Positions 3,301 through 18,649 of a stretch of 64,000 nucleotides of DNA are shown here, one piece after another; the first letter of the stretch is position 1, and each line of letters starts with the position of its first letter. Origin of the DNA: Promicromonospora thailandica (lineage in GTDB: Bacteria; Actinomycetota; Actinomycetes; Actinomycetales; Cellulomonadaceae); contig NZ_JAMTCS010000001.1 in assembly GCF_024171955.1 (NCBI RefSeq), positions 124,001-188,000 of the forward strand, written 5' to 3'. Made by a program: the position numbers and the translations under genes. The notes beneath the pieces were generated by a model. It saw nothing but the letters and a program-made list of their open reading frames with translations. It was not told the DNA's origin and ran no database searches.

Positions 3301-4412
3301 CCGGGCGACGACGTCGACTGGCAGCCCGCCTGGCCGGCGTTGCCCGCCGCCCACGCCCCGAAGATGCCGGCCGCTTCCCAGGCGTCGATCTCCTCGGCCA
3401 TGAAGTCGTCGATCAGGCCCGGCTGCTGCTGACCCCACGAGTTGTTCACGATGTGGGGGCGCTGGGCCGGGTCCGGGTCGGAGCCGTCGGCACGCGTCGG
3501 GGCCAGGATCCACTGGCCGGAGGCCAGCAGGTCGGCGTCCGAGCAGCTGGCGCAGCCGTTGGCCGCGATCCAGTCCGCGTCGGGCGCGACGCCGATCTGG
3601 TTGCCCGCGCCGTCGTCGCCCACCATGGTGCCCATGACGTGCGTGCCGTGGGCGTCGACGTCGCAGGGTGCACCGTCGCAGAAGCCGCCCGCGTCGAACC
3701 AGTTGTAGTCGTTGGTCAGGCCCTCGTCGCCCTGGTAGCCACGGTAGTGCTCCAGCAGCGCCGGGTGCTCGACGTCGACGCCGGAGTCGATGTTGGCCAC
3801 GGTGATGCCCTCACCCGTGTACCCCTCGGCCCAGACCGCGGGGGCGTTGATGGCGTCCAGGCCCCACTCGGTGGCCAGCGGCGCGTTCGCCGTGGGCGCC
3901 TTCCGCTCGACCGGCTCGATCTGCTGGGCCGCGAAGCGCTCGTGGACCTGCTTCACCTCGCGGCTGCCGGCCACCTGCTTCGCCAGCTTCGCCGTGCCGT
4001 CCTCGACCAGGATCGCGTTGCTGATCCAGTACGACTCGTAGTCGACGCCCGCCGCCTCGAGGTCGGCGACGACACCGGCCTGGGAGGTCTTCGCGGTGCT
4101 CGTCAGGGCGTCGTAGACGAACTGGCCGCGCTCGGCCCAGTCCGTGATGTCCTTGGCCGGCTCGAGGTCCGGCGTGTCGGTGAACTGGATCCAGAAGTCC
4201 GCGGACTTCTTGGCCTCGAACCGCTGCTGGACCGCGGGAGTGATCTTGTCTGCGGCCTTCTCCGGGGTGTCGGTGCTGGTGACGGCAGGCTGGGGGCCCG
4301 TCGTCACCGGAGGGCTCGCGAGCGCTGGTACCGCGCTCACGGTTGCGGCAACGAGAGCGCCGATCGCCGTGAGGGCGATCGGCGCACTTCTGGCTGTCAT
4401 GCGACCGTGCAT
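360..4412 (-). CDS. Secreted S8 serine peptidase (bacillopeptidase F-like) with multiple beta-domains
   Basis: Large exported subtilisin-family protease of 1350 residues. I chose the ATG at 4412 because GGAGG sits 5 bases upstream and a signal peptide follows (hydrophobic stretch about residues 10-30, cleavage after ALA). A propeptide-like segment (about 45-170) precedes the catalytic domain, which shows the full triad: Asp209 in VANIDSGVDVEHP, His255 in DAHGTHVMGT and Ser429 in SGTSMASPHLAG, with the oxyanion Asn in WAAGNAG. Downstream come carboxypeptidase-regulatory-like repeats (two after the catalytic domain, another in the middle, one at the extreme C-terminus), a jelly-roll/MAM-like domain (FESGDVPDGW onward) and an Ig-like segment. 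No LPXTG or membrane anchor is visible, so it is probably released. Substrate is unknown; nutrient proteolysis is the simplest role. Confidence 0.92.
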   Translation of the reverse strand: MHGRMTARSAPIALTAIGALVAATVSAVPALASPPVTTGPQPAVTSTDTPEKAADKITPAVQQRFEAKKSADFWIQFTDTPDLEPAKDITDWAERGQFVYDALTSTAKTSQAGVVADLEAAGVDYESYWISNAILVEDGTAKLAKQVAGSREVKQVHERFAAQQIEPVERKAPTANAPLATEWGLDAINAPAVWAEGYTGEGITVANIDSGVDVEHPALLEHYRGYQGDEGLTNDYNWFDAGGFCDGAPCDVDAHGTHVMGTMVGDDGAGNQIGVAPDADWIAANGCASCSDADLLASGQWILAPTRADGSDPDPAQRPHIVNNSWGQQQPGLIDDFMAEEIDAWEAAGIFGAWAAGNAGQAGCQSTSSPGANVATYAAGAFGEDGEIAAFSSRGPGAEGETKPNLAAPGDEVRSSVPGGDYAEFSGTSMASPHLAGAVALLWSASPALVGDIEGTQALLDSTSVDVDDDSCGGTPADNNVWGEGKLDVQALVQNAPIDGYGFLAGTVTGPDGEPVAGARVVAGERSDTTDTTGAFRLGLEEGSHDVTVSAFGFLDATASVDVTEGEETTLDVTLETAPTTTVSGTVTDGGEHGWPLDARVTVQGAPSSVVAWTDPFTGEYSLELPQSSTHTLVVRPSVAGYATFTGDVEVGTEPTTADAALDVLAECTAPGYALSGAGATEEFESGDVPDGWTVEDLAGTEQVWTFDDRFGATNQTGGEGLFAEVNSDGYGPDGTQDTTLTSPSFDLSGLEEPLLTFDQSYGALGDFADVDLSLDGGETWETVLHQTSDALGRTVVALPGAGGQSDVQVRFHYGDGAWALWWQVDNVGVGSCEPVDGGLVAGFVQDLNTGDGVNGATVTAGDVTATSADPENPTVGAGYYSLFTSAGEQQLGYTAKDYAATEATVTVAADEITRQDVELAAPLLTVSPGEINREVRLGGTRSGRFTVTNEGTAPADVEVAPASSDFEILGSASRTGVIQGATSETTEVSTAGTSARKGVAAAKDDRFGRHGKPGRTVTPAAPPVLLAEGTTITHSSSQDVTAGNSVACLAGPTQFLRTFTLEDFDIEGEFAVTNVSFGVETATDTEVTVNLYELDGEFVYANMNLLGSADATLEAQDLTMVDVPVTGTAPAGSTLVVEVIGAAGEFFIGSNAEPETAPSYIASDDCGTPEPSTVADLGFPDMHTVLNVTGETTVEVPWLDVQPPAFTLDPGESATVLLDLDSSRVDQPGTYTSAVVADGSTPYAEPRVQVSLSVTPPASWGKIAGTVTGATCDDETVPLEGAFVVIDGSEYDVTLVTGEDGGYARWMGVSNNRLSLLSSASGYPPESKNARIIKGQTVVHDFELDEYCG

Positions 4413-4733
4413 TCTTGCCTCCGGGGTGCAAGCGCTCCCAGCCGGGAGCGCGACCACAGGCCCACGAGCGTGCGCCTGGTCACACTCTGGGGACAGCGGG
4501 CGAAAAGAGCAACGAAAGTCAGGGAACCACCCATATTCATGGACCGGTCCGCCGCGGCCTCCGGCCGGCGACGCGCGGCAGGTCGCTTCGTCTTCTGCGA
4601 CTGGCCGGCTCAGCGTGACCACGTACGGCTGAGCGCCGCTCGATCCAGCCCTGCTGAACTATTCGGCTGACCCGAACTGAGCACGGCTGAGCGGTACGCC
4701 GTTCACCCGACGCGGCACCCGCTCCGCGACGAA

Positions 4734-6789: not shown

Positions 6790-9700
6790 GTGGGCGACCA
6801 CGTCTACGTGCTGCCCGACGCCGCGCTGCCCTACCTGGCCGCGGGCACCCTCGACCGCCGCCTGTTCGACGTCACCGCGCTCCTGGAGCTCGGGTACGAC
6901 GACGAGACCCGGACCGCGACCCCCCTCATCGTGGAGCACACGGGCGCCCGCACCCGGGCGGCGCTGCCCGGGACGACCCGCACGCTCGACCTGCCGAGCA
7001 TCGACGCCGCCGCCCTGTCCGCCGACAAGGACGCGACGCAGCGGCTCTGGGCGACCGTGACGGGCACCGCTGCCTCGTCCGGCGCCGCGAGCGCCCGCAC
7101 GGCCCGGACGGGTGCGTTCCACGGCGGCGTGGAGAAGATCTGGCTCGACGGCAAGGCCGAGGCGACGCTGGACCGCAGCACCGCGCAGGTCGGGGCGCCC
7201 GAGGCGTGGGCCGCCGGGTTCGACGGGACGGGCGCGACGGTCGCCGTGCTCGACACGGGCATCGACGCCACGCACCCGGACGTGACGGACCAGATCGCGG
7301 GGTCGACGTCGTTCGTGCCGGGCCAGGAGGTCACGACCGACGTGCAGGGGCACGGCACGCACGTGGCCTCCACGGTGCTCGGCACGGGCGCCGCGAGCGA
7401 CGGCCTGTACCGGGGTGTGGCGCCCGGCGCCGACCTGCTGGTGGGCAAGGTGCTGGACGACGACGGTTACGGCCTGGAGTCCTGGATCATCGCCGGTATG
7501 GAGTGGGGCGCCGCGAACGCGGACATCGTCTCCATGAGCCTGGGCGACTCCAGCCTCAACGACGGCACCGACCCGATGGCGCAGGCACTGAACGTGCTGA
7601 GCGAGGAGACGGGGGCGCTGTTCGTGGTCGCGGCGGGCAACAGCTACACCGAGGGTTCGCTCGGCAGCCCCGGTACGGCGGACGCGGCCCTCACGGTGGG
7701 CGCGGTGGACGACGACGACGTGCGCGCCGACTTCTCGAGCTACGGCCCGCGCGTGGGTGACCACGCGATCAAGCCCGACCTCACGGCGCCGGGCGTGGGC
7801 ATCGTCGCGGCGCGCTCGCAGCAGTCGGGCGGTGCGGGGTCGTACGTGTCGATGAACGGCACGTCGATGGCCACGCCGCACGTCGCGGGTGCGGCGGCGA
7901 TCGTCAAGGGGGCGCACCCGGAGCTCACGGGGGCGCAGCTCAAGGCAGCGCTGGTCTCCTCGGCCGCGGACATCGACGCCCCGGCGTACGAGGTGGGCAC
8001 GGGGCGCCTCGACGTGCCGGCGGCCCTCGACGGCGTGGACGGTTCGGGCGACGGGTTCCTCGGCTTCTACGGCTGGCCGCACGACGGCGACGAGCCCGCC
8101 ACGGGCACCGTCACCTACACCAACTCGACCGACGCCGACGTGAGGCTCGCGCTGAGCACGGACGTCGTCGGCCCGGACGGGGAGGCGAGCGACCTGGTGT
8201 CGCTGTCCGCCTCCGAGGTGGTCGTGCCGGCGGGCGGCAGCGCCGACGTCACGTTCTCCGCCGACGCCGACGACGCCGCGCCGGCCGGGAAGTACAGCGG
8301 CGCCGTCGTCGCGACGGACGCCTCGGGCGACGTCGTGGTGCGCACCGCGACCGCCCTGGTCAAGGAGGAGGAGCGGTACGGCCTGGACATCACGGCGCTC
8401 GACCGGTCGGGCAGGCCCGCGTCCGGGTACGTCGACTTCTACCGGTACGGCGACCAGTTCGTGAGCACGCTGCCGATCGACCCGGCCACGGGCGAGGTGC
8501 CGACGCAGCGGCTGCGGCCCGGCGTCTACTCGGCCACGGCGTTCCTCGACGTCGCCGGGTCGAAGGGTCAGGGGTCGACCGGCGTCGCGCTGGTCGGCGA
8601 CCCGCAGGTGGTCGTCTCCGACGCGGACCGGTCGCTCGTGCTGGACGCCCGCGAGGCCACCGAGCTGACGCTCGACACGCCCCGCGAGAGCGACGTCGCC
8701 TTCCGGCGGTTCCAGTTCTTCAACGACTCGGGCATCGGCGGGCAGTACGCGACGTTCGGCGCCACGTACACCGTGCCGGCCGACGTCGACTCGTTCTACG
8801 CCGCGCCGACCGGCGAGGTGGACAGCGCGGAGTTCGACTTCGCCGTGCGCTGGCGGGCCACCGAGCCCGCGCTCGACGTGCGGGCGTGGACCCCGGCGCC
8901 CGTCGCGTTCGACCCCGTCTACCAGACCTGGTCCATGCGCCTGGACGGCCGGGTGTCGCTGCGCGGCGTCACGGCCGGGACGGGTACCCCTGCCGAGTAC
9001 GCGGGCGTGCCGGCGAAGGGCCGCGCCGTGCTCGTGACCCGCGACGACGCGGTGTCGGCCGCGGAACGTGAGGCGGCGGCCGCCGCGGCAGGGGCCGCAC
9101 TGCTCGTGGTCGTCAACGACCGGCCGGGCCCCCTGGTCGAGCGCGTCACGCAGGAGGACCTGCCCGTCGTCTCGGTGTCGCAGGCCCAGGGCGTGCGGCT
9201 GCTCGCGGCGGCGGGGAAGGGACGACTCACACTCACGGGCAGCGCGGTGGAGTTCCCGTCGTACCTGTACGACGTGTCCCGGAGCTGGCCCGGCGAGATC
9301 CCCGCGACGCTGGGTCTGGCCCCGACGAAGCGCCAGCTCGCCACGGTGCACAGCCGGTACACCGACACCGAGGGCCGGCTCGCGCTCGACGACCGGGCCG
9401 ACTGCCGCGACTACCAGTGGCCGCCGTGCCTGAGCGTGCTCGCCGAGCAGCCCACGGGTACGGAGCGCACGGACTACGTCTCCACGTACGACGGCGTCAC
9501 CTGGTACGAGAACGTGGACCACGAGAGCGGGTGGGGTCAGCGCGGTGTGCGCCAGGCGTACGAGCCGCGCGGCACCACGGTGCGTGACTGGTTCGCTCCC
9601 GTCACGGCGCCCCGCACGGGCGACGGCTACTGGGGCCCGTGGCACGAGGGCGACTGGTTCGCGGTCAACGTGGCACCGTCCGGCGGCCAGGACGGCCTGA

Positions 9701-10287
9701 CCGGCGGCTTCCCGTGGGGCGAGACCCCGGTGACCTCGCGCCTGTACCAGGGCGACACCCTGGTGGACGAGGGCATCGGCCAGGCGGTCCAGACCGACGT
9801 GCCGGCGGCCGAGGGTCCGCAGACCTACCGGTTCGAGATCGACACCGACGCCGCCGACGACACCCACCGGTACTCGACCCGCACCCGCACGTCGTGGACC
9901 TTCGTTGCCGACCAGGCCGACGCCGACGTCCCGGGCGAGACCGGCACCCCGCTGCCGCTGGTCCAGCTCGACTACGACGTCGACACGGCGCTGGACGGCA
10001 CGGTCCGCGCGGGCGCCGTCGTCCCGTTCGCGGTGGAGCCGTACACGGTGCCGAACGCGCCGCGCGCGGGCGACGTGACGGCCGCGACGCTCGAGGTGAG
10101 CTACGACGGCGGCGCCATCTGGACGACCGTGCGGCTCCGCGAGGACGACGGCCGCTGGGAGGCGCGCCTGCGCATCCCGTCGCGCGGCGCCGACCTGGTG
10201 TCGCTGCGCGCGACGGCGCAGGACGACGCGGGCAACTCGGTGACCCAGGAGGTCACGTCGGCGTTCGGGATCGCCGGCCGCCGGTAG
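6790..10287 (+). CDS. S8 serine peptidase with PA domain (main reading frame)
   Basis: A subtilase of 1165 residues counted from the GTG at 6790; the frame is open back to 6739 and logically continues the 5' fragment at 6474. The triad is intact: Asp155 in VLDTGIDATHPDV, His188 in GHGTHVAST, Ser359 in NGTSMATPHVAG, with Asn in VAAGNSY. A protease-associated (PA) domain lies at about 734-810 (GRAVLVTRDDAV ... LPVVSVSQAQG), and the long C-terminal half is beta-rich. Family members are secreted. If the frameshift is real, the enzyme would not be exported and the locus is decaying; if it is a sequencing error, the gene is 6474-10287. It is divergent from the two-HTH regulator and ends at a 34-bp hairpin. 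Confidence 0.85.
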   Translation: MGDHVYVLPDAALPYLAAGTLDRRLFDVTALLELGYDDETRTATPLIVEHTGARTRAALPGTTRTLDLPSIDAAALSADKDATQRLWATVTGTAASSGAASARTARTGAFHGGVEKIWLDGKAEATLDRSTAQVGAPEAWAAGFDGTGATVAVLDTGIDATHPDVTDQIAGSTSFVPGQEVTTDVQGHGTHVASTVLGTGAASDGLYRGVAPGADLLVGKVLDDDGYGLESWIIAGMEWGAANADIVSMSLGDSSLNDGTDPMAQALNVLSEETGALFVVAAGNSYTEGSLGSPGTADAALTVGAVDDDDVRADFSSYGPRVGDHAIKPDLTAPGVGIVAARSQQSGGAGSYVSMNGTSMATPHVAGAAAIVKGAHPELTGAQLKAALVSSAADIDAPAYEVGTGRLDVPAALDGVDGSGDGFLGFYGWPHDGDEPATGTVTYTNSTDADVRLALSTDVVGPDGEASDLVSLSASEVVVPAGGSADVTFSADADDAAPAGKYSGAVVATDASGDVVVRTATALVKEEERYGLDITALDRSGRPASGYVDFYRYGDQFVSTLPIDPATGEVPTQRLRPGVYSATAFLDVAGSKGQGSTGVALVGDPQVVVSDADRSLVLDAREATELTLDTPRESDVAFRRFQFFNDSGIGGQYATFGATYTVPADVDSFYAAPTGEVDSAEFDFAVRWRATEPALDVRAWTPAPVAFDPVYQTWSMRLDGRVSLRGVTAGTGTPAEYAGVPAKGRAVLVTRDDAVSAAEREAAAAAAGAALLVVVNDRPGPLVERVTQEDLPVVSVSQAQGVRLLAAAGKGRLTLTGSAVEFPSYLYDVSRSWPGEIPATLGLAPTKRQLATVHSRYTDTEGRLALDDRADCRDYQWPPCLSVLAEQPTGTERTDYVSTYDGVTWYENVDHESGWGQRGVRQAYEPRGTTVRDWFAPVTAPRTGDGYWGPWHEGDWFAVNVAPSGGQDGLTGGFPWGETPVTSRLYQGDTLVDEGIGQAVQTDVPAAEGPQTYRFEIDTDAADDTHRYSTRTRTSWTFVADQADADVPGETGTPLPLVQLDYDVDTALDGTVRAGAVVPFAVEPYTVPNAPRAGDVTAATLEVSYDGGAIWTTVRLREDDGRWEARLRIPSRGADLVSLRATAQDDAGNSVTQEVTSAFGIAGRR

Positions 10288-10482: not shown

Positions 10483-11412
10483 GTGACCGACCTGCGCGAG
10501 CAACCCTCCCCGCCGGGCCAGCAGCCGCACCAGGCGGGGCCTACGGAGGAGGACGTCATCGCCGTACAGCGTGTTCTCGTGACCGGCGCGGCCGGCCGGA
10601 TCGGGCGGGGTGTCCTGGACGTGCTCGCCCGCGAGTCGGTGGCCGCGACGGCCCTCGTCCTCGAGGATCCCGGCGACCTGGCCGCGGACCGGGTGGTCGT
10701 GGGCGACGCCGGGTCGCCCGAGGTAGCGGCACGCGCGGTGGAGGGTGCTGACGCCGTCGTCCACCTCGCCGCCATCCCGACGCCGATGGCCGACCCGCCC
10801 GAGGTCGTGTTCGGCACCAACACGATGGCCACGTTCGCGGTGCTCGACGCCGCGGGCCGGGCCGGCGTGCGCCGGGCCGTGATCGCGAGCAGCCAGGCCG
10901 CGTGGGGCACCGCCTTCGCTCAACGGGAGCTGCACCCCGTCTACCTGCCGGTCGACGTCGACACCCCCGACCAGGCCGCCGACCCGTACGCCCTGTCCAA
11001 GCGCACCGACGAGCTGACCGCCGACATGATGGCCCGGCGGCACGGCATGTCCGTGGTGGCGCTGCGCTACCCGTTCGTGGGCGGCATGGACGAGCGGCTG
11101 CGGGCACGCGCGGACGAGGTGGCGCGCGACCCGGGCCTCGGCGCGCGGAACCTGTGGGCCTACCTCGAGACCCGGGACGCCGCCGAGGCGGCCTGGCTCG
11201 CGCTCGCCCACCGGGCCGACGGCGCCCAGGTCGTCTACGTGGCCGCGCCCGACACGCTGGTGCCCATGCCGACCGCCGAGCTGCTGCGCCGGTACCACCC
11301 GGACGTGCCCCTGCGACGGCCGGTCGAGGGGTACGAGGTGCCGATCGACCTCGGCCCCGCCGAGCGGCTGCTGGGATTCCGCGCTCGTCACCTGGTGGTC
11401 GGCACGCCCTGA
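10483..11412 (+). CDS. NAD(P)-dependent epimerase/dehydratase family protein (extended SDR)
   Basis: Extended short-chain dehydrogenase with an N-terminal Rossmann motif (VLVTGAAGRIGRGV), VVHLAAIPTP, and the YxxxK pair in DPYALSKRTDE. The family acts on nucleotide sugars or related keto/hydroxy substrates; the exact substrate is not visible. The start is unclear. The GTG at 10483 lies 5 bp after a palindrome and gives 309 residues. However, a very strong GGAGGAGG ends 5 bases before an ATC codon at 10558-10560, exactly where homologues begin, so translation may start at this rare codon (or it is an ATG miscalled). The 3' end overlaps the convergent MFS gene by 25 bp. Confidence 0.82.
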   Translation: MTDLREQPSPPGQQPHQAGPTEEDVIAVQRVLVTGAAGRIGRGVLDVLARESVAATALVLEDPGDLAADRVVVGDAGSPEVAARAVEGADAVVHLAAIPTPMADPPEVVFGTNTMATFAVLDAAGRAGVRRAVIASSQAAWGTAFAQRELHPVYLPVDVDTPDQAADPYALSKRTDELTADMMARRHGMSVVALRYPFVGGMDERLRARADEVARDPGLGARNLWAYLETRDAAEAAWLALAHRADGAQVVYVAAPDTLVPMPTAELLRRYHPDVPLRRPVEGYEVPIDLGPAERLLGFRARHLVVGTP

Positions 11413-12674
11413 CCGTCGGGTCGGACGCCGTTCACCGCGGGCGTGATCCGCCGTCCGACCGCGAAGGCCATGGCCGCGATGCCCGCACACCCGACCACGA
11501 CGACGGCGATGAACGCGCCGGCGAGGCCGTGCTCCAGCAGGAAACCGGCGGCGACCGGCCCGACGATGGTGCCCGCCTGGAACGCCCCGGAGCCCAGCGC
11601 GTTGTATCGGCCGCGCAGGTGCGCGGGCGCCATGTCGTTGGTCAGGGCGGGCAGGGTCGACTGCATCAGCGTCTCCCCCACGCCGAACACGGCGTGGAAG
11701 GCCAGCACGATGACGACGGCGGTGGTGCCGCCCGGCACGATGCCGGTGACGCCGAGCAGGAGCCACGCGGTCGCCCAGACAGCAGCCATGACGGCAAGCA
11801 CGCGGGTGCGGCGTCGTCCGCTCACGCGGTTCATGACCCAGAACTGCAGCGCCACGATGGCCACGGTGTTGACCACGAAGGCGAAGCCGATGGTGCGCGT
11901 GGACACCTCTGCGACCTGCCGCGCGAACGCCGGGAACCCGCCCTCCATCTGGCCGTACCCGACGAACGCGGCGAGCAGGCCGAGGCCCGCGAGCCACAGC
12001 ACCTCGGGCCGACGCAGGATGCTGAGGTAGCCCTCGGCCGCGCCGGCGTCGTCCGGCCGCTCGGCCCGTCCGTGCAGGTGGCGCAGCGGCCCGAGCAGCA
12101 CGGCGACCGGCGCGAGGAACGTCGCGGCGTTCACGAGGAACGCGGCGACGAACGTGCCGGGACGATCGACGTCGACGACCAGACCCCCGACGACACCACC
12201 CACACCGACACCCAGGTTGAGCAGTGCGAAGTTGACGCCGTAGTAGCGCTGGCGCAGGTCGCCGTCGACCACCGTGGCCACCAGCGCGTTGACGGACGGC
12301 CAGCCCACGCCGAGCTGCACCCCGAACAGGGCGAGCCCCACCGCCGCGACGACGGGCGTGGTGGCCAGCGCGAGCACGGAGTACCCGGCGACCGCGAACA
12401 CGAGGCCGACGAGCATCACCCGGCGCGCGCCGTACCGGTCCACGAACGCACCGGCCGGGCCGGTGACCAGCAGGCCGACCACGGCGATCAGGCCCATGAG
12501 CGTGCCCGACAGGCCGAGCGAGAAACCCCGCACCTCGTGCAGGTAGATGATCGTGAAGGGGAGGGTCAGACCGCGGCCGAAGAACTGCACGACCACGGTC
12601 GAGAGGAGCCAGCGGCCGTCGGTCGGGAGGTCCGACCAGAAGGCCAGGGCGCCGGAGCGGGGGGAGGATGTCAC
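11388..12674 (-). CDS. MFS transporter (drug/efflux-like)
   Basis: A 428-residue polytopic membrane protein with the 12-helix pattern of the major facilitator superfamily. The loop 2-3 motif A appears as GAFVDRYGARRVM and a related GLFR-type turn repeats in the second half (PAHLRGRYNALGSGAF). I use the GTG at 12674 because GAGGA lies 7 bases before it; the region upstream is Pro/Arg-rich non-coding text. Proton-coupled export of a small molecule is the likely role; substrate unknown. It converges on and overlaps the epimerase gene. Confidence 0.85.
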   Translation of the reverse strand: MTSSPRSGALAFWSDLPTDGRWLLSTVVVQFFGRGLTLPFTIIYLHEVRGFSLGLSGTLMGLIAVVGLLVTGPAGAFVDRYGARRVMLVGLVFAVAGYSVLALATTPVVAAVGLALFGVQLGVGWPSVNALVATVVDGDLRQRYYGVNFALLNLGVGVGGVVGGLVVDVDRPGTFVAAFLVNAATFLAPVAVLLGPLRHLHGRAERPDDAGAAEGYLSILRRPEVLWLAGLGLLAAFVGYGQMEGGFPAFARQVAEVSTRTIGFAFVVNTVAIVALQFWVMNRVSGRRRTRVLAVMAAVWATAWLLLGVTGIVPGGTTAVVIVLAFHAVFGVGETLMQSTLPALTNDMAPAHLRGRYNALGSGAFQAGTIVGPVAAGFLLEHGLAGAFIAVVVVGCAGIAAMAFAVGRRITPAVNGVRPDGQGVPTTR

Positions 12675-12895
12675 ACGTCGATCCTCACCCCTGGCCGGGC
12701 GGGGCGGCGAGCGGTTTTCGGACGGGGTGTGGGCCGGACGTGGTACGGGGCATGGGCCGCTACCGCAACCTTTGGCGCCCACGAACCGCTACATGACAGC
12801 AAGAGTGGGGCCTGACAACGCGAAGTTCGAGGTGATTCGGGCTTGCGAGCCAACGGACAGCGTCGCGGTGAGACGCGATCCCTCGATGCCTGTGC

Positions 12896-13600
12896 TCATG
12901 TGTGCTTCTTGACCGACCCCGATCGTAGATACACCCAGCCCTGGCCGTCCACCCTGACGCCCACGACGCGATCGTCGGTCCTGTCGCGCGCCAAGCGAAT
13001 CCCTCCCACGACAGTTCCCTTCTTCAGGATGGCCGGCGAGTTACGGAACCTGATATCGCGCGTTATCACAACGGCGCCTCCATCAACCAAGGCATCACCG
13101 TGCGCGTCTGTCACTACGAACGGTTCCTCACCCTCATGGCCAGGAGCAGGCGCTGTCAGCGACCCTGCGCGGGACTGCAGGTTCTCACGAGCATCGGATT
13201 CCCGAACCAAATCCAACCGACGCCGATACTCGCCAGGCTCCAGAAATGGTTCTCCCGCCCTGCGGACGACACGGTTCGTACGCGGGTCTACCTGGCTCAG
13301 GTTCAGATGGTCACCCTTCTTGGTCGTATATCCCGCCCTCCTCTCTGCCGGATCGACACGGTAGGTGATGACAGCGCTACACAGTGCGCCAACACTACCG
13401 GCCACGCCGATGAGCACAATAACAGTCGTCAGGAAGGGCGATCCGAGGTACCCTGTGCCGCGCAATGCGAGACCAAGAACAAACAGCAAGATTAGCATAA
13501 AGAATACCGCGGCGGCCACAATCCCGCAGATCGACAAGGTCCGCACGGAAGGACCAGAGGCGCGTTTTATCTTTATCTGCGGATGCCATTCTCCTACCAT
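12896..13600 (-). CDS. Hypothetical two-TM membrane protein
   Basis: No family recognised. The 234-residue product has two hydrophobic segments (about 22-47 and 57-82) near the N-terminus and a soluble, charged C-terminal two thirds, probably cytoplasmic (ends VYLRSGSVKKHT). Local GC is clearly lower than in flanking core genes, which suggests foreign origin. The ATG at 13600 overlaps the stop of a 39-codon ORF in the pattern ATGGTAG, which argues for coupled translation and supports this start. Probably part of a small accessory cassette with the DUF6226 gene upstream. Confidence 0.55.
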   Translation of the reverse strand: MVGEWHPQIKIKRASGPSVRTLSICGIVAAAVFFMLILLFVLGLALRGTGYLGSPFLTTVIVLIGVAGSVGALCSAVITYRVDPAERRAGYTTKKGDHLNLSQVDPRTNRVVRRAGEPFLEPGEYRRRLDLVRESDARENLQSRAGSLTAPAPGHEGEEPFVVTDAHGDALVDGGAVVITRDIRFRNSPAILKKGTVVGGIRLARDRTDDRVVGVRVDGQGWVYLRSGSVKKHT

Positions 13601-13713
13601 CCCGGAAGCCCCACCTTCGAGTCCACCCAGTTCCCGAACTGCCCGTCCAGATGGAACAGGGAGGCCACTCCGGTCGAGAGTTCACGGGCAAACCTCACAG
13701 CCAGCCCTCCCAT
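13594..13713 (-). CDS. Short ORF coupled to the membrane protein gene
   Basis: A 39-residue ORF begins at the ATG at 13713 and stops at 13594-13596 with TAG embedded in the ATGGTAG that starts the next gene. Its product (ending GNWVDSKVGLPGW) has no homologue I recognise. The 7-bp overlap is the main evidence. The 250 bp between it and the DUF6226 gene hold one small stem (GCGGAT/ATCCGC near 13778-13795) and nothing else I can support. Confidence 0.35.
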   Translation of the reverse strand: MGGLAVRFARELSTGVASLFHLDGQFGNWVDSKVGLPGW

Positions 13714-13963
13714 CCCCGAGCCTATAGATCAAACCTACCGTCCGTCCCACTGACGGTTCAGCTTCCTCCTCCTCTGCGGATTTGCATCCGCGCAGACGTT
13801 GCGTGCGATGGGTCGGAACATGGCTCATAGATGTCCCGACTCATTGCATGGGATTGGGCTGGCGATTCTTGGCCCCCGGAAGAAGTTTTTTGCGTTGGCG
13901 CCGAGTCCACCACAGGCGGGCCCGTCGAGAGTCTTGGTCGTGCTGCGACCTATGGCTAATGCG

Positions 13964-14659
13964 TCACACCCAGGGGCTGTTCACCAGAACCCTGACATCC
14001 TCGGGAAACGAAACATTCTCTCCCCTGGAAAGCTGGCGGCCCCATGCCATTATCTGGTCAAACCCTGGGTGTCCAGGCCTTCCCCCCACACCTCCACCGT
14101 CGGGCGTCCATATGCCGCGCCAGTTGGCACCAAGCATGAGGACCATCCCGTTGAGCGCTTCGACGATAGTCTCATCGAGACCCTTCACCAAGTTCGCCGA
14201 ACCAAAATCACATGCATCGCACCCGCAGTCGGGCACGCGCTCTATTTCTATGTCGGGTTCTGCCACACTGACACAAACCATCGGGGAGTCCCCAGTCTCG
14301 GTTAGATCTCTCTCGAGAAGGAGCAGAGGCAGCGTGTCCGCTCTCCGAGAAGTCAAGCGCACCCCTCTGTCGAAATGCGAGCCGAGCAACTCAACTTCGA
14401 GAGGTTCTGCATCGATATCGGGTAGAGGCCCGAGCACGTGTACCCAAGCTCGCGCGCGGAGTAGCGTAATGAAGTACTTCTCCGGATTGGTCACCCGCGA
14501 GTATTCCTCGGCGGTCGCCTCTCGATCCTGATGGGGGTCCGGCCACGACGTCGAATTGGAGCGCGCATAGATCGCGTTCACACGGTCGGTCAGCGCCGAA
14601 GACTTCACCTGGTGATCATAGCGGGACGTTAGCCGGGTTTTTGTCGCTGCCAACATCAA
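13964..14659 (-). CDS. DUF6226 family protein
   Basis: A 231-residue soluble protein. The segment VPDCGCDACDFGSANLVKGLDETIVEALNG, with its CGCDAC cysteine cluster followed by an acidic 'LDE.I' helix, is the hallmark I associate with DUF6226, a family of unknown function scattered in actinobacteria. The N-terminal ATG at 14659 is followed by a second ATG at 14656. Lower GC than its neighbours and IS remnants next to its 5' end indicate horizontal acquisition. No membrane segment. Confidence 0.6.
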   Translation of the reverse strand: MMLAATKTRLTSRYDHQVKSSALTDRVNAIYARSNSTSWPDPHQDREATAEEYSRVTNPEKYFITLLRARAWVHVLGPLPDIDAEPLEVELLGSHFDRGVRLTSRRADTLPLLLLERDLTETGDSPMVCVSVAEPDIEIERVPDCGCDACDFGSANLVKGLDETIVEALNGMVLMLGANWRGIWTPDGGGVGGRPGHPGFDQIMAWGRQLSRGENVSFPEDVRVLVNSPWV

Positions 14660-14687
14660 CGTGGGTCAGGAACTCGATCTGTGGTAT

Positions 14688-14965
14688 TTAGCCGCGATTC
14701 TGCACCTGGCGGGTAGCCAGGGCCCCGTCAAAGTCAGGCCTGTAGAGCTTGACGGGGTGGGTCTCGTTCCTGGCCATCTGACGGTTGGCTTCGGCGATGT
14801 TGCCGAAGCCTGCTGCGTGGACCAGATAGTTCGCGAAGCTGCGCAGGGTGGCCCTGACCTGGGGAGCGTGGCGGTGCGGACCAGAGAGCGGTCCTCGTCG
14901 TAGGTCACGGCACGCACGTGGTGCAGTCGGTTCTCCCCGAACCATGTCTGGCTGTGGGACACCTC
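14688..14965 (-). pseudogene. ISAs1/IS4-type transposase remnant (C-terminal end, frameshifted)
   Basis: On the minus strand one frame gives TWFGENRLHHVRAVTYDED followed by RSLVRTA, and the next frame continues HAPQVRATLRSFANYLVHAA. Joined, they match the conserved C-terminus of ISAs1 (H-repeat) transposases: 'ENRLHWVRDVTYDED..S.VRTG.AP.VMATLRNLAI'. A single-base loss near 14858 breaks the frame. The rest of the transposase, including its catalytic DDE residues, is missing, so it is inactive. Confidence 0.75.
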
Positions 14966-15058
14966 CGAGCACCCCACCGCCCGCTCGTCCGTGAGATGGC
15001 CGCGACCGGCGCCCCGATCAGGGTGCCGGTCGCGGTGGCGTACCGGGTCCTGGGCTAG
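14963..15058 (+). pseudogene. IS3-family transposase OrfB fragment (N-terminal end)
   Basis: The plus strand reads HRPLVREMAATGAPIRVP then VAVAYRVLG and stops at 15056-15058. This matches the extreme N-terminus of IS3-family OrfB transposases, in which a short helix of this kind precedes the integrase core. Only about 30 codons remain; they abut the ISAs1 remnant directly. The sequence just after (TGTACTGATTCAGGAGG, 15060-15076) may be a former element end. Confidence 0.55.
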
Positions 15059-15168
15059 CTGTACTGATTCAGGAGGTTGTTGACATAGCGATGGCCTCCG
15101 GGTCGAGTGGGAGCTGTCTAGCGGTTAACGGACGCGGTGGCGCCGGTCCCAGCGGGGCCTGGCCGCTG

Positions 15169-15660
15169 TCAGGAGGAGCTCTTGTACGCGTCGTAGAGCG
15201 CCAGGACCGCCTTCTTCTTGCTCGTGCTCTGCACGCTCCGCCGGGCTTCCGTGACCCGCACGAATCCCGGCTCCCACCGCAGACGCCGTGGAACCAGGAT
15301 CTTGGGCCAGTTGAGGTAGATGATCGTGAAGTCCGCGGCCACCCCGAGAAGGAGCAGGAGCATGCCGCCGAGGGCGACAAACCATTCGAACGGGCCCGGC
15401 GGGTCGAAGGCGTCCGAGACGAAGACGGCCACCGCGGCGACGGCCATGCCCCACGCGGAGATGTTGGTCGCCAGCGGCCCCCGGAGGTGCCCTCGCACCT
15501 TGTCGGCATCCGCCGAGAACACCGACATCGCCGTGGTCATCCGTTCCACCGTGCGGGGATCGCCCCGCCAGTAGCCGACCACCATGACGAGGTGCACGGC
15601 CGCGGCCGACACCAGCGCCAGTGCCAGTACGCCCGTCAGAGCAGGAGACTCACTCAGCAC
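15169..15660 (-). CDS. Small membrane protein, tandem family copy B1
   Basis: A 163-residue protein of unknown function with four hydrophobic segments (about 6-28, 68-90, 95-120, and a weaker one) and a basic C-terminal tail. The motif NWPKILVPRRLRWEPGF after the last helix recurs in the sibling genes as RPKFLVPPHMRR, KPGFLVSPHMRD and RPNLAVPREVRH. I prefer the GTG at 15660: AGGGAGG lies 8 bases upstream, and the stop of a broken upstream ORF overlaps it. A GTG at 15669 is the alternative. No homologue outside this cluster is known to me. Confidence 0.6.
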   Translation of the reverse strand: MLSESPALTGVLALALVSAAAVHLVMVVGYWRGDPRTVERMTTAMSVFSADADKVRGHLRGPLATNISAWGMAVAAVAVFVSDAFDPPGPFEWFVALGGMLLLLLGVAADFTIIYLNWPKILVPRRLRWEPGFVRVTEARRSVQSTSKKKAVLALYDAYKSSS

Positions 15661-15887
15661 CTCGTCCACCTCCCTGATGCTCGACCGGGATCCACCCGTC
15701 CGGGCCGACCCTGCGCGGACCGGCGGCGAGCTCCCTGGCCGCCACCACGACAAGACCCAGCGCCCCGAGGACCACGAAGCCCCGGCCCGGTGCTCGCCCG
15801 GATGACGCGGGTGCTCCGCGGGTCGACGAGCGGCACCCAGGTGGGTCCGTCGCCGGCAGCGGTGTACCCGTCGCGGATCTCCCGTGA
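15650..15887 (-). pseudogene. Broken ORF upstream of copy B1
   Basis: Two adjacent minus-strand frames carry convincing protein-like text: EIRDGYTAAGDGPTWVPLVD plus PRSTRVIRASTG up to about 15784, then GFVVLGALGLVVVAARELA to a stop at 15650-15652. Removing one C from the CCCC run at 15780-15783 joins them into one small membrane protein. It has no obvious start codon because promoter copy R1 sits at its 5' edge. Its stop overlaps the B1 start by 11 bases, consistent with a former operon. Confidence 0.45.
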
Positions 15888-15915
15888 TCGTCCGGGAGAC
15901 GGGACGCCGGGTCAA
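15887..15915 (-). promoter_or_regulatory. Duplicated promoter, copy R1
   Basis: On the minus strand TTGACC (15910-15915), a 17-bp spacer and GACGAT (15887-15892) form a promoter-like pair. The same arrangement occurs at R2, R3 and R4 with identical spacing and about 45 bp of shared flank (… GTCAATGCATCAA … GGTCAA on the plus strand). R1 lies 230 bp before B1. Confidence 0.55.
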
Positions 15916-15979
15916 TGCATCAAGCGGCGCCGCCGCGAAAGTTCACCCTCGACACCAACGGCACACGCGCCACCCGGGA

Positions 15980-16490
15980 TCAGAGCTCACTTCGGCGTCG
16001 CGCAACTCGCAGCCCAGGATCGTCTCTCATGTGTGGAGACACGAGGAACCCGGGCTTGTTGAAGTACACGATGACTGCCCAGACGATCAGCAGGATCCCG
16101 TTGACCGGGATCGACAGCAGAACCAGCCGACCCATGACATCAGGAAGTGCTCCACCGGGGGTCCGTGAAGAAGGTCAGCGCGAATCCGTCGAGAACGGTG
16201 TTCGCCCCGATGACGCAGATCACCGGCAAAGCTCTGACATGCCCCCGGGAGAGTTCCAGGTCTCCGCGCCCGATGCCGTTCTTCATCCGGGACACAAGGA
16301 CATCGGTCCACCGTTCGTCGATCCACGACCGGAGGGTCGCGTAGACGGCATAGATGATCGCCGTGCCGAAGACCGTGAGTGCCACGACGGCAAGCGGAGA
16401 CCCTGCTTCGACGCCTTGATCGTGCCCGTAGCCGCCCGAGATCAGCAGGATGCTGCCCTGGATCGATATCTCGCTCGCCATCTCACCCAT
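15980..16490 (-). pseudogene. Small membrane protein, tandem family copy B2 (frameshifted)
   Basis: Starts at the ATG at 16490 (or 16481) with MGEMASEISIQGS and runs in frame to FALTFFTDP at about 16160. There the frame changes inside a run of five G (16156-16160, CCCCC on the coding strand). Dropping one C restores GGALPDVMGRLVLLSIPV and ILLIVWAVIVYFNKPGFLV to a stop at 15980-15982. The restored product is about 170 residues with four membrane segments and the family motif KPGFLVSPHMRDDPGL. It could be a dead gene, a phase-variable tract or a homopolymer error. It lies 70 bp downstream of B3, so the two were probably cotranscribed. Confidence 0.6.
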
Positions 16491-16560
16491 TCTCGACCAC
16501 CCATCCGTTCGCCAGGTCGGTGGAGCTGTCGGGCACGTTGCTCGCCACGGCGGCCTTGGC

Positions 16561-16959
16561 TCACTCGTCGCGTGCGAAAAGGCTGCGGTCGCGCCGCATG
16601 TGCGGCGGGACGAGAAACTTCGGGCGTGCGAACAGGCCGACGATTCCAGCCAGGAGCATCGACAGCGCCACGCCCGCAAGACCGACTTCCAGCATCACCG
16701 ACCCGTACTCCGGCCCCACGAGCCCTGACACCGCGCACATCAGAACGAACGCCATCATGACGAGCGTCGGGACAAAGGCTCGAACCCAGCCTCGCGCCAC
16801 CCGTTCGTTCCCGAGGCTCAGCCGCATCCCCAGGATGGCCGCTGTCATCCGGTCCGCCACAGAGGCCCGTCGCCAGAGCGTGACCGCAGCCCAGACGTAG
16901 ACCGGGAGCGTGACGCCGATGACGACGGCGAAGCCGGCGAACGCCGCAGTCCCTTCCAT
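16561..16959 (-). CDS. Small membrane protein, tandem family copy B3
   Basis: The best-preserved member: 132 residues, ATG at 16959 with GGAGGAGAG immediately upstream. Four hydrophobic helices (about 6-26, 58-80, 88-108 and 110-118 region) surround the soluble segment MRLSLGNERVARGWVRAF, and the protein ends with RPKFLVPPHMRRDRSLFARDE. Alignable with B1 through RxxxV..RMT.A and V.RGW.R in the same order. Promoter copy R2 lies 50 bp upstream. Function unknown; the family architecture would suit a small membrane-resident protective or immunity protein, but nothing here proves it. Confidence 0.65.
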   Translation of the reverse strand: MEGTAAFAGFAVVIGVTLPVYVWAAVTLWRRASVADRMTAAILGMRLSLGNERVARGWVRAFVPTLVMMAFVLMCAVSGLVGPEYGSVMLEVGLAGVALSMLLAGIVGLFARPKFLVPPHMRRDRSLFARDE

Positions 16960-17011
16960 CTCTCCTCCGTACCGGCAGACATCGAGATCCACCCACGCCG
17001 CGTGTCCCGCG

Positions 17012-17040
17012 ATCGTCCTGGATGTGATCGCGCAGGTCAA
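17012..17040 (-). promoter_or_regulatory. Duplicated promoter, copy R2
   Basis: Minus strand TTGACC (17035-17040), 17-bp spacer, GACGAT (17012-17017). Its expected start point is about 45 bases before the Shine-Dalgarno-equipped ATG of B3, the most natural promoter-gene spacing of the four copies. Confidence 0.6.
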
Positions 17041-17067
17041 CGCACCGGGAACACGCCCGAACGAACT

Positions 17068-17115
17068 TCACCCGTGCGCCAGGAGTCGTGGGCCGCGGCG
17101 ACGACGGCGAGCCAT
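17068..17115 (-). pseudogene. Internally deleted remnant of the copy-A gene
   Basis: A 15-residue minus-strand ORF (MARRRRRGPRLLAHG) fuses the beginning of the intact gene at 18081-18623 (MARRRS...) to its end (...LLAHG-stop). The flanking DNA on both sides also matches the flanks of that gene. This is the scar of a duplicated unit whose A gene lost its whole interior while the downstream promoter and B gene were kept. Confidence 0.55.
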
Positions 17116-17153
17116 GTGCCACCTCGTCCCACCCCGGCTGCCCCCCCACCGCT

Positions 17154-17606
17154 TCACTCGCGCGTCACCTCCTTGCGCGCACGCCGCGCCCGGAAGCGCA
17201 CCACGAGCAGCCCGGGCACGTGGCGAACCTCGCGGGGCACCGCCAGGTTCGGCCGGCCGAGCTGCCGTGCGGTCACGGTCCAGACGGCAACAACGGCCAG
17301 CGCGTTGCGCCAGTGCGACCAGTCGTCGACCTGCATCCTCGAACCGAGAACTGCCATCGCGAGGAGCTGGACGGCCGTGGCCAGCGCGCCGAGCATCGCC
17401 GGGAGGACCGTCCGGACGTCGGCGGCAACGCGGTAGATGTCCTCCCCGCGCTCCGACCCGATCTGCTCGAGGTCGACGCGCAGCCCGCGGCGTCGCCGCT
17501 GCCGCATCTCACGCGGTACGGCCACGAGGATCCAGAGTAGGAACATCGCCGAAATGCCCATCGCCGCACGGAAGACGGGGCTGCTGACCAGCACGTCATA
17601 GGCCAC
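17154..17606 (-). CDS. Small membrane protein, tandem family copy B4
   Basis: A 150-residue membrane protein from the GTG at 17606 (GGAAGG 8 bases upstream; a GTG at 17615 is possible). It has a first helix FRAAMGISAMFLLWILVAV, a basic loop REMRQRRRRG, two more helices (AMLGALATAVQLLAMAVLG; NALAVVAVWTVTA) and the family signature GRPNLAVPREVRHVPGL near the C-terminus, followed by a strongly basic tail. Promoter copy R3 lies 77 bp upstream. Divergent from B1-B3 in detail but same layout. Confidence 0.6.
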   Translation of the reverse strand: MAYDVLVSSPVFRAAMGISAMFLLWILVAVPREMRQRRRRGLRVDLEQIGSERGEDIYRVAADVRTVLPAMLGALATAVQLLAMAVLGSRMQVDDWSHWRNALAVVAVWTVTARQLGRPNLAVPREVRHVPGLLVVRFRARRARKEVTRE

Positions 17607-17682
17607 GACGCACACCTTCCCGGGCCCGGTCGGCCCTTCGCACAAGCCGGAGAGCCGTGTGCTCCCGGTCCCTGGTCCCGTG

Positions 17683-17711
17683 ATCGTCCTGGACGCGGAA
17701 CTGCAGGTCAA
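17683..17711 (-). promoter_or_regulatory. Duplicated promoter, copy R3
   Basis: Minus strand TTGACC (17706-17711), 17-bp spacer, GACGAT (17683-17688), upstream of B4. It shares the adjoining GTCAATGCATCAA block with R1, so R1 and R3 form the closer pair. Confidence 0.6.
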
Positions 17712-17715
17712 TGCA

Positions 17716-18016
17716 TCAACCGGTGGCGTCGCGGCCCTCGCCCCCGGACGCCGACAGGTGCCGGCGCCGGCCACCTGGCGGAGTCGTACGTTGAGGCAAA
17801 GGCCCAGACCAGCCTCGTGCCACCCGCTCGCTCCCGAGGCTCAGCCGCGTGCGCGGACCCAGGATCCGGCGAGGGTCGCCGCCGGCGGGAGTGCGATCCG
17901 CACCACTCCCACGCACTCAGCGCCGCGACGGCGTGGAGCGGCATCCGGCCGGCGTCGCCTCCGGTCCGCCTCGTCCGAGATCGTCGGCGACCGCCTCCGC
18001 CACCCAGGCCTTCCGC
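17716..18016 (-). pseudogene. Degenerate family copy B5
   Basis: The minus strand contains RILGPRTRLSLGSERVARGW, which matches AILG-MRLSLGNERVARGW of B3 at protein level, and nearby DNA (17800-17860) matches B3 DNA almost base for base. A neighbouring frame holds a helix-like stretch VGVVRIALPPAATLAG. No frame is open across the whole region and the C-terminal motif is absent, so this is a decayed copy. It fills most of the 475-bp gap between B4 and copy A, downstream of promoter R4. Confidence 0.5.
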
Positions 18017-18024
18017 ATCGCACG

Positions 18025-18053
18025 ATCGTCCGGGACCTGATCGCGCAGGTCGA
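18025..18053 (-). promoter_or_regulatory. Duplicated promoter, copy R4
   Basis: Minus strand TCGACC (18048-18053, one mismatch from R1-R3), 17-bp spacer, GACGAT (18025-18030). It separates the intact A gene from the degenerate B5 copy, and is probably the ancestral A-promoter-B arrangement from which R2/B3 was copied. Confidence 0.5.
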
Positions 18054-18080
18054 CGCACCAGGAGCACGCCCCGACGCGCA

Positions 18081-18623
18081 TCACCCGTGCGCCAGCAGCT
18101 TGAGAGCCACGACCCCCATCGCGAGCAGCGCGAGCACGCCCAGCGCCAGGAGCCGCGCGGGCCACGGCACCTTCACGCGCCGCACGCCCAGCCACGAGAT
18201 GAGCACGAGCGAGGCGATCAGGATGCCCGTGCCGACGCGGAGCGCCGTCGTCACCTCCCACCAGCCCAGCCCTGCCGCCGCGAGCGCGATCAGGGGTGCC
18301 ACCAGCGTGACGAGGGCGCCCGCACTCGTGCGGGTCATGGCCGTCAGGTGGGGGCGGTCGGGGAACCCGCCGTGCGCGGCGAGGTGGCCGATGAGCTGGG
18401 CCAGCCAGGCCGCGGCGACCGTGCCGACGGCGGTGATGGCCAGGGATGCCGCCGCGGTCCCGGCGCCGAGCCCGTGGGCGTGCGCGAGCAGCGTGAGGAC
18501 GACGGCGAGCGACGCGAACGTGACGTAGACCCGTTCCCTGAGCCGTTCGGCGAGCTCCTCCTTCTCGGCGGCGCTGAGCGTGGCGGGATCCTGGTGCGAC
18601 CGACGGCGAGCCATGCCACCCAT
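18081..18623 (-). CDS. Hypothetical membrane protein (copy A of the array)
   Basis: A 180-residue protein with a basic, charged N-terminus (MARRRSHQDPATLSAAEKEE) and four hydrophobic segments (about 33-50, 54-78, 98-122, 132-150 plus a final helix to the C-terminus ALKLLAHG). No known domain recognised. In-frame ATGs occur at 18629, 18623 and 18614; the sequence around 18623 (GAGAATGGGTG) resembles the B2 start, so I use it. GC and codon use match core genes, so this copy may be the resident ancestor of the neighbourhood. A long palindrome lies just upstream. Confidence 0.65.
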   Translation of the reverse strand: MGGMARRRSHQDPATLSAAEKEELAERLRERVYVTFASLAVVLTLLAHAHGLGAGTAAASLAITAVGTVAAAWLAQLIGHLAAHGGFPDRPHLTAMTRTSAGALVTLVAPLIALAAAGLGWWEVTTALRVGTGILIASLVLISWLGVRRVKVPWPARLLALGVLALLAMGVVALKLLAHG

Positions 18624-18649
18624 TCTCACCCGGGCCGGCCCGTGGAAGC

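Follow-up and report, generated by a model that had tools for sequence, protein, structure and literature searches.

What is a row of small membrane-protein genes and gene remnants, with four copies of one short element set among them, doing beside a conserved resident gene of Promicromonospora thailandica, and how did it arise? The question is raised by a stretch of 64,000 nucleotides (contig NZ_JAMTCS010000001.1, positions 124,001 to 188,000; hereafter the window, in whose coordinates positions are given unless another locus is named). From 18080 to 15169 its minus strand carries three intact small membrane-protein genes (B4, B3 and B1), one split gene (B2) and one remnant (B5). A first-pass annotation had explained this array by repeated amplification of a promoter-gene unit followed by divergence, and had guessed at immunity or receptor-like membrane proteins. 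The explanation considered likely here is that the array is an orphan immunity island, in which B1, B3 and B4 would protect against the glycine-zipper tails of Rhs-type toxins of other actinobacteria.

Read along the minus strand, gene A is followed by a leader and the B5 remnant, a leader and B4, a leader with B3 and the broken B2, and finally a leader, a relic and B1. In detail:

18081 to 18629, minus strand: gene A, a conserved resident membrane protein at the left edge of the insert that holds the array, not a relative of the B genes
18010 to 18067, minus strand: leader of type I, TCGACC-N17-GACGAT at 18053 to 18025
17716 to 17916, minus strand: B5, a decayed copy of the B3 unit, without the C-terminal signature
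17668 to 17725, minus strand: leader of type II, hexamer span 17711 to 17683
17154 to 17606, minus strand: B4, intact, 150 amino acids, probable orphan immunity protein, 28% to a protein of G003 (E 6e-14)
16997 to 17054, minus strand: leader of type I, hexamer span 17040 to 17012, with a duplicate of the A 3' end in front of it
16561 to 16959, minus strand: B3, intact, 132 amino acids, probable orphan immunity protein, 52% to a P. kroppenstedtii gene (E 1e-41)
15980 to 16490, minus strand: B2, a broken B-family gene in two frames, directly behind B3 and without a leader of its own
15887 to 15915, minus strand: leader of type II
15777 to 15905, minus strand: short relic lying between a leader and B1 and weakly resembling the C6-type immunity family in its tail part
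15169 to 15660, minus strand: B1, intact, 163 amino acids, probable orphan immunity protein, matching G193b (E 2e-9) and G025 (E 6e-7)

E-values for the B matches, for the relic and for a further gene at 12896 to 13600 described below were computed on a 12-kb stretch without composition correction, and only the strong ones were used. The reading frames bear out the annotated array and its decay, B2 being split over two frames, with profile matches to both halves, and B5 being a remnant. The C-terminal signature ascribed to all five genes, RP(K/G/N)(F/I/L)(L/A)VP..(M/L/V)R, is met in its strict form by two of them, B3 (RPKFLVPPHMR) and B4 (RPNLAVPREVR); B1 (WPKILVPRRLR) and B2 (KPGFLVSPHMR) depart from it and B5 has none. 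The similarity expected among B1, B3 and B4 in profile alignments was likewise found in part: B1 and a B3 profile align with hhalign at a probability of 96% (E 1e-9), while B4 alone reaches only 4%. Gene A, at 0.2% in the profile comparison with the B family, is unrelated.

The case for immunity comes from the relatives of these genes elsewhere. Searched with the B profile at E 1e-4, the family yielded relatives in 11 of the 221 genomes covered (own genome and profile-building rows counted), the order in three of 396 and the phylum in four of 396 (own genome counted in both); further relatives came from scanning named genomes, in Promicromonospora kroppenstedtii (its gene being that of G010), Streptomyces, Actinacidiphila, Isoptericola and Salinispora. 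Thirteen of the 21 relatives in other genomes lie at most 153 nt behind a frame with a glycine-zipper tail, compared with two of 142 control genes. Such a tail was defined by at least six GxxxG motifs in the last 80 residues of a frame ending just before or over the relative's start codon; the controls were the other genes of the same loci and of the window, 142 being left of 153 after removal of eight relatives and three B rows of the window. Toxin and immunity frames overlap or nearly touch in G025 (+13), G001 (+17), G014 (+10), G208 (-2) and L097 (+1), and the P. kroppenstedtii match of B3 itself stands behind an Rhs/glycine-zipper gene. All seven long upstream genes tested (G010, G025, G014, G208, L091, L098 and G193b) scored above the RHS_repeat cut-off, in a test that left out the frames upstream of G001, G025b, L094, L096 and L097, and five glycines are invariant in the nine aligned rows of toxin tails. 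The frame upstream in L092 is a 165-residue tail without RHS repeats; that locus (L092:5394-7109, Streptomyces blattellae) has two immunity genes in tandem behind a glycine-zipper tail that stands on its own. Immunity genes are known to remain after toxin-tail exchange as displaced orphan modules of Rhs and contact-dependent inhibition (CDI) systems, and G025 (L041:12600-13800) has the same arrangement: there an intact Rhs toxin-immunity pair is followed by another glycine-zipper tail, broken but accompanied by an immunity gene of its own. The array of P. thailandica differs from such modules in standing at an unrelated site, in an insert without Rhs relics. The simplest reading of these neighbourhoods is that most of the B family would be cognate immunity proteins, with orphans besides. 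The earlier guess at immunity or receptor-like membrane proteins holds up.

In P. thailandica itself, Rhs repeats occur in one place only, on contig C6 (locus L039, C6:168000-182000), where the Rhs gene ends in a different tail, and an immunity-like gene that belongs to another family overlaps it. At E 0.001 the glycine-zipper tail profile found no match in the genome, which is 99.8% complete. Since the sole Rhs locus ends in another tail and the tail profile finds none, B1, B3 and B4 have no partner in their own genome; these would be immunity genes without a matching toxin, as is characteristic of an orphan island. At L039, a second relative and transposase remnants follow the Rhs/immunity-like overlap.

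The array is also carried on acquired DNA, its site being vacant in relatives. Gene A is present in 10 of 12 congeners at 72-88% identity and is directly followed by the MFS gene in five of them, the other five A-carrying congeners having different neighbours. L073, the nearest congener, aligns to 18632-18081 on the A side and to 12730-12001 on the MFS side; the two alignments join at a single base (query base 2046), so that 12731-18080 is extra DNA in the window. The insert starts immediately 3' of the A stop codon, and its GC content (65.6%, measured on 12783-18080) stands against 73.9% outside. The insert and its further contents are:

12731 to 18080, no strand assigned: the 5350-bp insert itself, separating gene A from the MFS gene and missing in five congeners
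11388 to 12782: MFS gene, on the other side of the insert
12896 to 13600, minus strand: membrane immunity protein of a second type (C6 family) fused to a PhnA domain (YjdM/PhnA, E 3e-12)
13964 to 14659, minus strand: DUF6226 gene within the insert (PF19736, E 7e-28)
14935 to 15055, no strand assigned: remnant of an insertion-sequence-like element, matching a transposase locus of contig C8 over 76 nt (97%) and 47 nt (94%)

The gene at 12896-13600, unrelated to the B family, places a second immunity type in the same insert and is counted in favour of an immunity island. Its protein matches L039:8615-9214 at 38% (E 9e-25) and, at 32% (E 1.5e-14), L039:6214-6642, which extends over the stop codon of the genome's Rhs gene. 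The relic at 15777-15905 weakly resembles the same family (tblastn E 0.004 and 0.085 with L039 proteins, E 0.02 with the 12896 protein). Searches of the insert with Rhs parts gave no match at E 0.01, and tblastn with the toxin tails, run with masking and composition correction off, gave low-complexity matches only. No tyrosine recombinase was recognised in the insert among the frames of at least 60 residues that were read, with Pfam applied to selected frames. The DUF6226 gene has a close copy, with similarly low GC at third codon positions, at a different site in the congener G006 (L114:1330-1914). An immunity role for DUF6226 was considered but is at most tentative, the 1.5-kb flanks of the three other copies inspected showing no adjoining Rhs gene. 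Upstream, the region is flanked by two large subtilase-family proteins (360-4622 and 6790-10287).

Regarding the proteins themselves, the AlphaFold2 model of B3 is all-helical and confident (pLDDT 92, pTM 0.81); its long hydrophobic helices span residues 2-30, 62-78 and 83-110, and the signature follows closely on the third. The model of B4 is weak (pLDDT 69), with a similar order of helices, and was too weak for fold comparison. No fold match to the B3 model was found at E 0.001 in PDB or BFVD, and a PDB sequence search returned nothing convincing (best E 0.11). B1, B3 and B4 have no match above cut-off in Pfam, NCBIfam or PADLOC, and within these three collections the annotator's remark that no described family carries this signature holds. 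DUF6256 was considered for B3 and rejected (15.5 bits against a cut-off of 25), and DUF443 is not among the Pfam matches of the B proteins.

On this basis a mechanism may be proposed. B1, B3 and B4 would be small three-helix proteins of the cytoplasmic membrane that block the insertion or assembly of a toxin tail, the tails being membrane-depolarising or pore-forming C-terminal domains of Rhs-type toxins; each B protein would match a different toxin, and the leader would drive the expression of each captured gene. The leader-gene unit would have been duplicated at least once (units 5 and 3), after which recombination, anchored by the leaders, may have exchanged the genes behind them for immunity genes that had already diverged, with B5 and B2 decaying later.

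The leader is central to this proposal. The hexamers of all four copies are exactly 17 bases apart, and the positions and spacing annotated for four copies of TTGACC-17 bp-GACGAT (15887, 17012, 17683 and 18025) stand; TTGACC itself is found in three of the four, the copy at 18025 reading TCGACC. A longer leader pattern, with up to three mismatches allowed, occurs at four places in the 5.38-Mb genome, all of them in the array, with none for the reversed control and none in 12 congeners. By chance, TYGACC-N17-GACGAT would be expected at a mean of 0.004 sites, with a maximum of one, in 3000 Markov-resampled copies of the 5.3-kb region. Two types can be told among the copies: type I comprises 18025 and 17012, 79% alike over 52 bp, and type II comprises 17683 and 15887, 75% alike over 52 bp; they alternate I, II, I, II along the array. 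The invariant bases are not claimed as proof of function, since four related copies cannot separate descent from constraint.

How the array was assembled, and what the leader does, are the points on which other explanations have to be weighed. Amplification in place would mean that this lineage copied a single leader-B unit several times over, with diversifying selection then driving the copies apart. It can draw on the absence of the leader from the rest of the genome, on the 71% likeness over 93 nt between leaders 17683 and 15887, and on units 5 (18124-17789) and 3 (17110-16765) being true duplicates at 65.5% over 354 alignment columns (E 2e-31). This last likeness begins in the 3' end of A, of which it includes the last 44 nt, and extends halfway into the gene, in agreement with the annotated sharing of this end by the units at 17012 and 18025. 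In units 4 and 1, however, DNA likeness is limited to the 93 nt around the leader, with none in the genes, and the tree, from which B2, B5 and the fragments or distant relatives G025b, G193a, G239, G004, G526 and L097 were left out, scatters the B genes: B3 pairs with the P. kroppenstedtii gene at 100/100, B4 falls in another of the starred clades with the toxin-linked G001, G014 and G208 at 100/99, and B1 goes loosely with G025 at 80/72. A single clade of B1, B3 and B4 was rejected by the approximately unbiased (AU) test (p = 0.0001), a test weakened by few rows and long branches; the three genes are too far apart for an estimate of dN/dS, the ratio of non-synonymous to synonymous substitution rates. 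The ancestry of the array genes is mosaic and only B5 and B3 look like a whole-unit duplicate. While the leader was indeed copied, as the four copies and the alignment of units confirm, amplification followed by divergence does not stand as the main process and is rated decidedly unlikely; the pattern suggests a duplicated block with genes replaced behind the leader, which weighs against it. The probable course is that the duplicated leaders had immunity genes of separate, diverged lines captured behind them, with the replacement step inferred from the DNA. It is a more tentative thought that the locus is specialised for such capture, the duplicated leader offering landing homology for the swapping of unrelated immunity genes and the array forming an updatable bank of membrane immunity proteins, from an undescribed family, against Rhs-delivered glycine-zipper toxins.

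The same element may, alternatively, be not a promoter but a recombination or attachment site for the entry of cassettes next to gene A. The insert and the first leader both begin directly after the A stop codon, and unit 3 carries its own copy of the A 3' end. TTGACC fits a -35 box but GACGAT fits a -10 box poorly; the leader scores eight of 12 sigma-70 consensus bases by our own count, and a scan set at nine of 12, with A2 and T6 in the second hexamer, found no sigma-70-like site against 0.1 expected. Yet the pattern search reported no copy at the far end of the insert, no recombinase gene was recognised in the insert, and the leaders are placed where an upstream region would be, with 52 nt to the ATG in the case of B3. 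Its placing ahead of the gene that opens each unit suits the leader to be an upstream region, and it may equally be a recombination anchor; a site for cassette entry in place of a promoter is judged unlikely, if less so than amplification. Least probable of all, and in our view very doubtful, is that the B proteins are secretion or anchoring partners of Rhs-type proteins or simply travel with them. Small membrane proteins near toxins can serve as delivery helpers, and relatives of the B genes do adjoin Rhs genes; but B sequences vary with the toxin tail and not with the conserved Rhs part, solitary orphan copies occur in several genomes, and a partner role has no partner in the window because the insert gave no Rhs match at E 0.01. 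The orphan immunity island, which we continue to prefer, is nevertheless weighed down by several observations. Eight of the 21 relatives have no glycine-zipper tail upstream, and of four distant relatives in a later set none has such a tail, one of them lying inside a broken Rhs gene. The toxin tails stay below the cut-off of the Pfam glycine-zipper models (best 21.9 bits against 25). B4 joins the B family only through its own subfamily, at a probability of 93% (E 4e-7) and over only 36 C-terminal columns. Nine of the tree's 15 forks are open and its branches are long, so that the placing of B1 is unsure, and the leader may have no function at all.

The proposed island resembles several known systems. 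ExiC and ExiD of Staphylococcus aureus are polytopic membrane proteins that confer immunity to EsxX, a secreted glycine-zipper toxin; strains that lack the toxin can carry them too, as orphans in antitoxin islands (PMC12744356). The likeness lies in membrane immunity against a C-terminal glycine-zipper domain and in orphan occurrence, whereas ExiC and ExiD, compared by description only, are paired and answer to type VII export, and the proteins considered here are single, small and directed at Rhs-type toxins in Actinomycetota. The tsaI strings of S. aureus are tandem, strongly diverged membrane immunity genes with pseudogenes, the variety of which is not explained by intragenic recombination (PMC9484751); they adjoin tspA and keep a similar N-terminal block, in contrast to the present array, in which a C-terminal signature is kept, no toxin is nearby and the leader is copied. 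The rAID arrays of Bacteroidales are also orphan immunity arrays, but they are tied to a recombinase and involve SUKH-type soluble proteins against type VI toxins (PMC12247911); the associated tyrosine recombinase gene by which rAID are recognised was not found in the insert frames examined. Finally, TelE and TipE of Streptococcus gallolyticus are another glycine-zipper toxin-immunity pair, in which the C-terminal glycine zipper is required for membrane damage and a small neighbouring protein neutralises it (PMC10434224), with the difference that TipE is a DUF5085 protein and export is of type VII. The likeness to ExiCD, tsaI, rAID and TelE/TipE appears to be one of anatomy, while protein family, toxin carrier and copied leader differ.

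Neither the B family nor an actinobacterial island of this kind was found in searches of open-licence papers, and the most solid new element is most likely an undescribed immunity family without an accepted model in Pfam, NCBIfam or PADLOC. If the proposed explanation is true, orphan immunity islands, known to us from Bacteroidales and staphylococci, would extend to actinobacteria, and a family of membrane immunity proteins unmodelled in the databases used would be added, together with matched toxin-immunity pairs in P. kroppenstedtii, Streptomyces griseoincarnatus and Actinacidiphila. It would also provide a locus whose genes differ in ancestry but share one leader in front of them, so that capture and amplification may be told apart.

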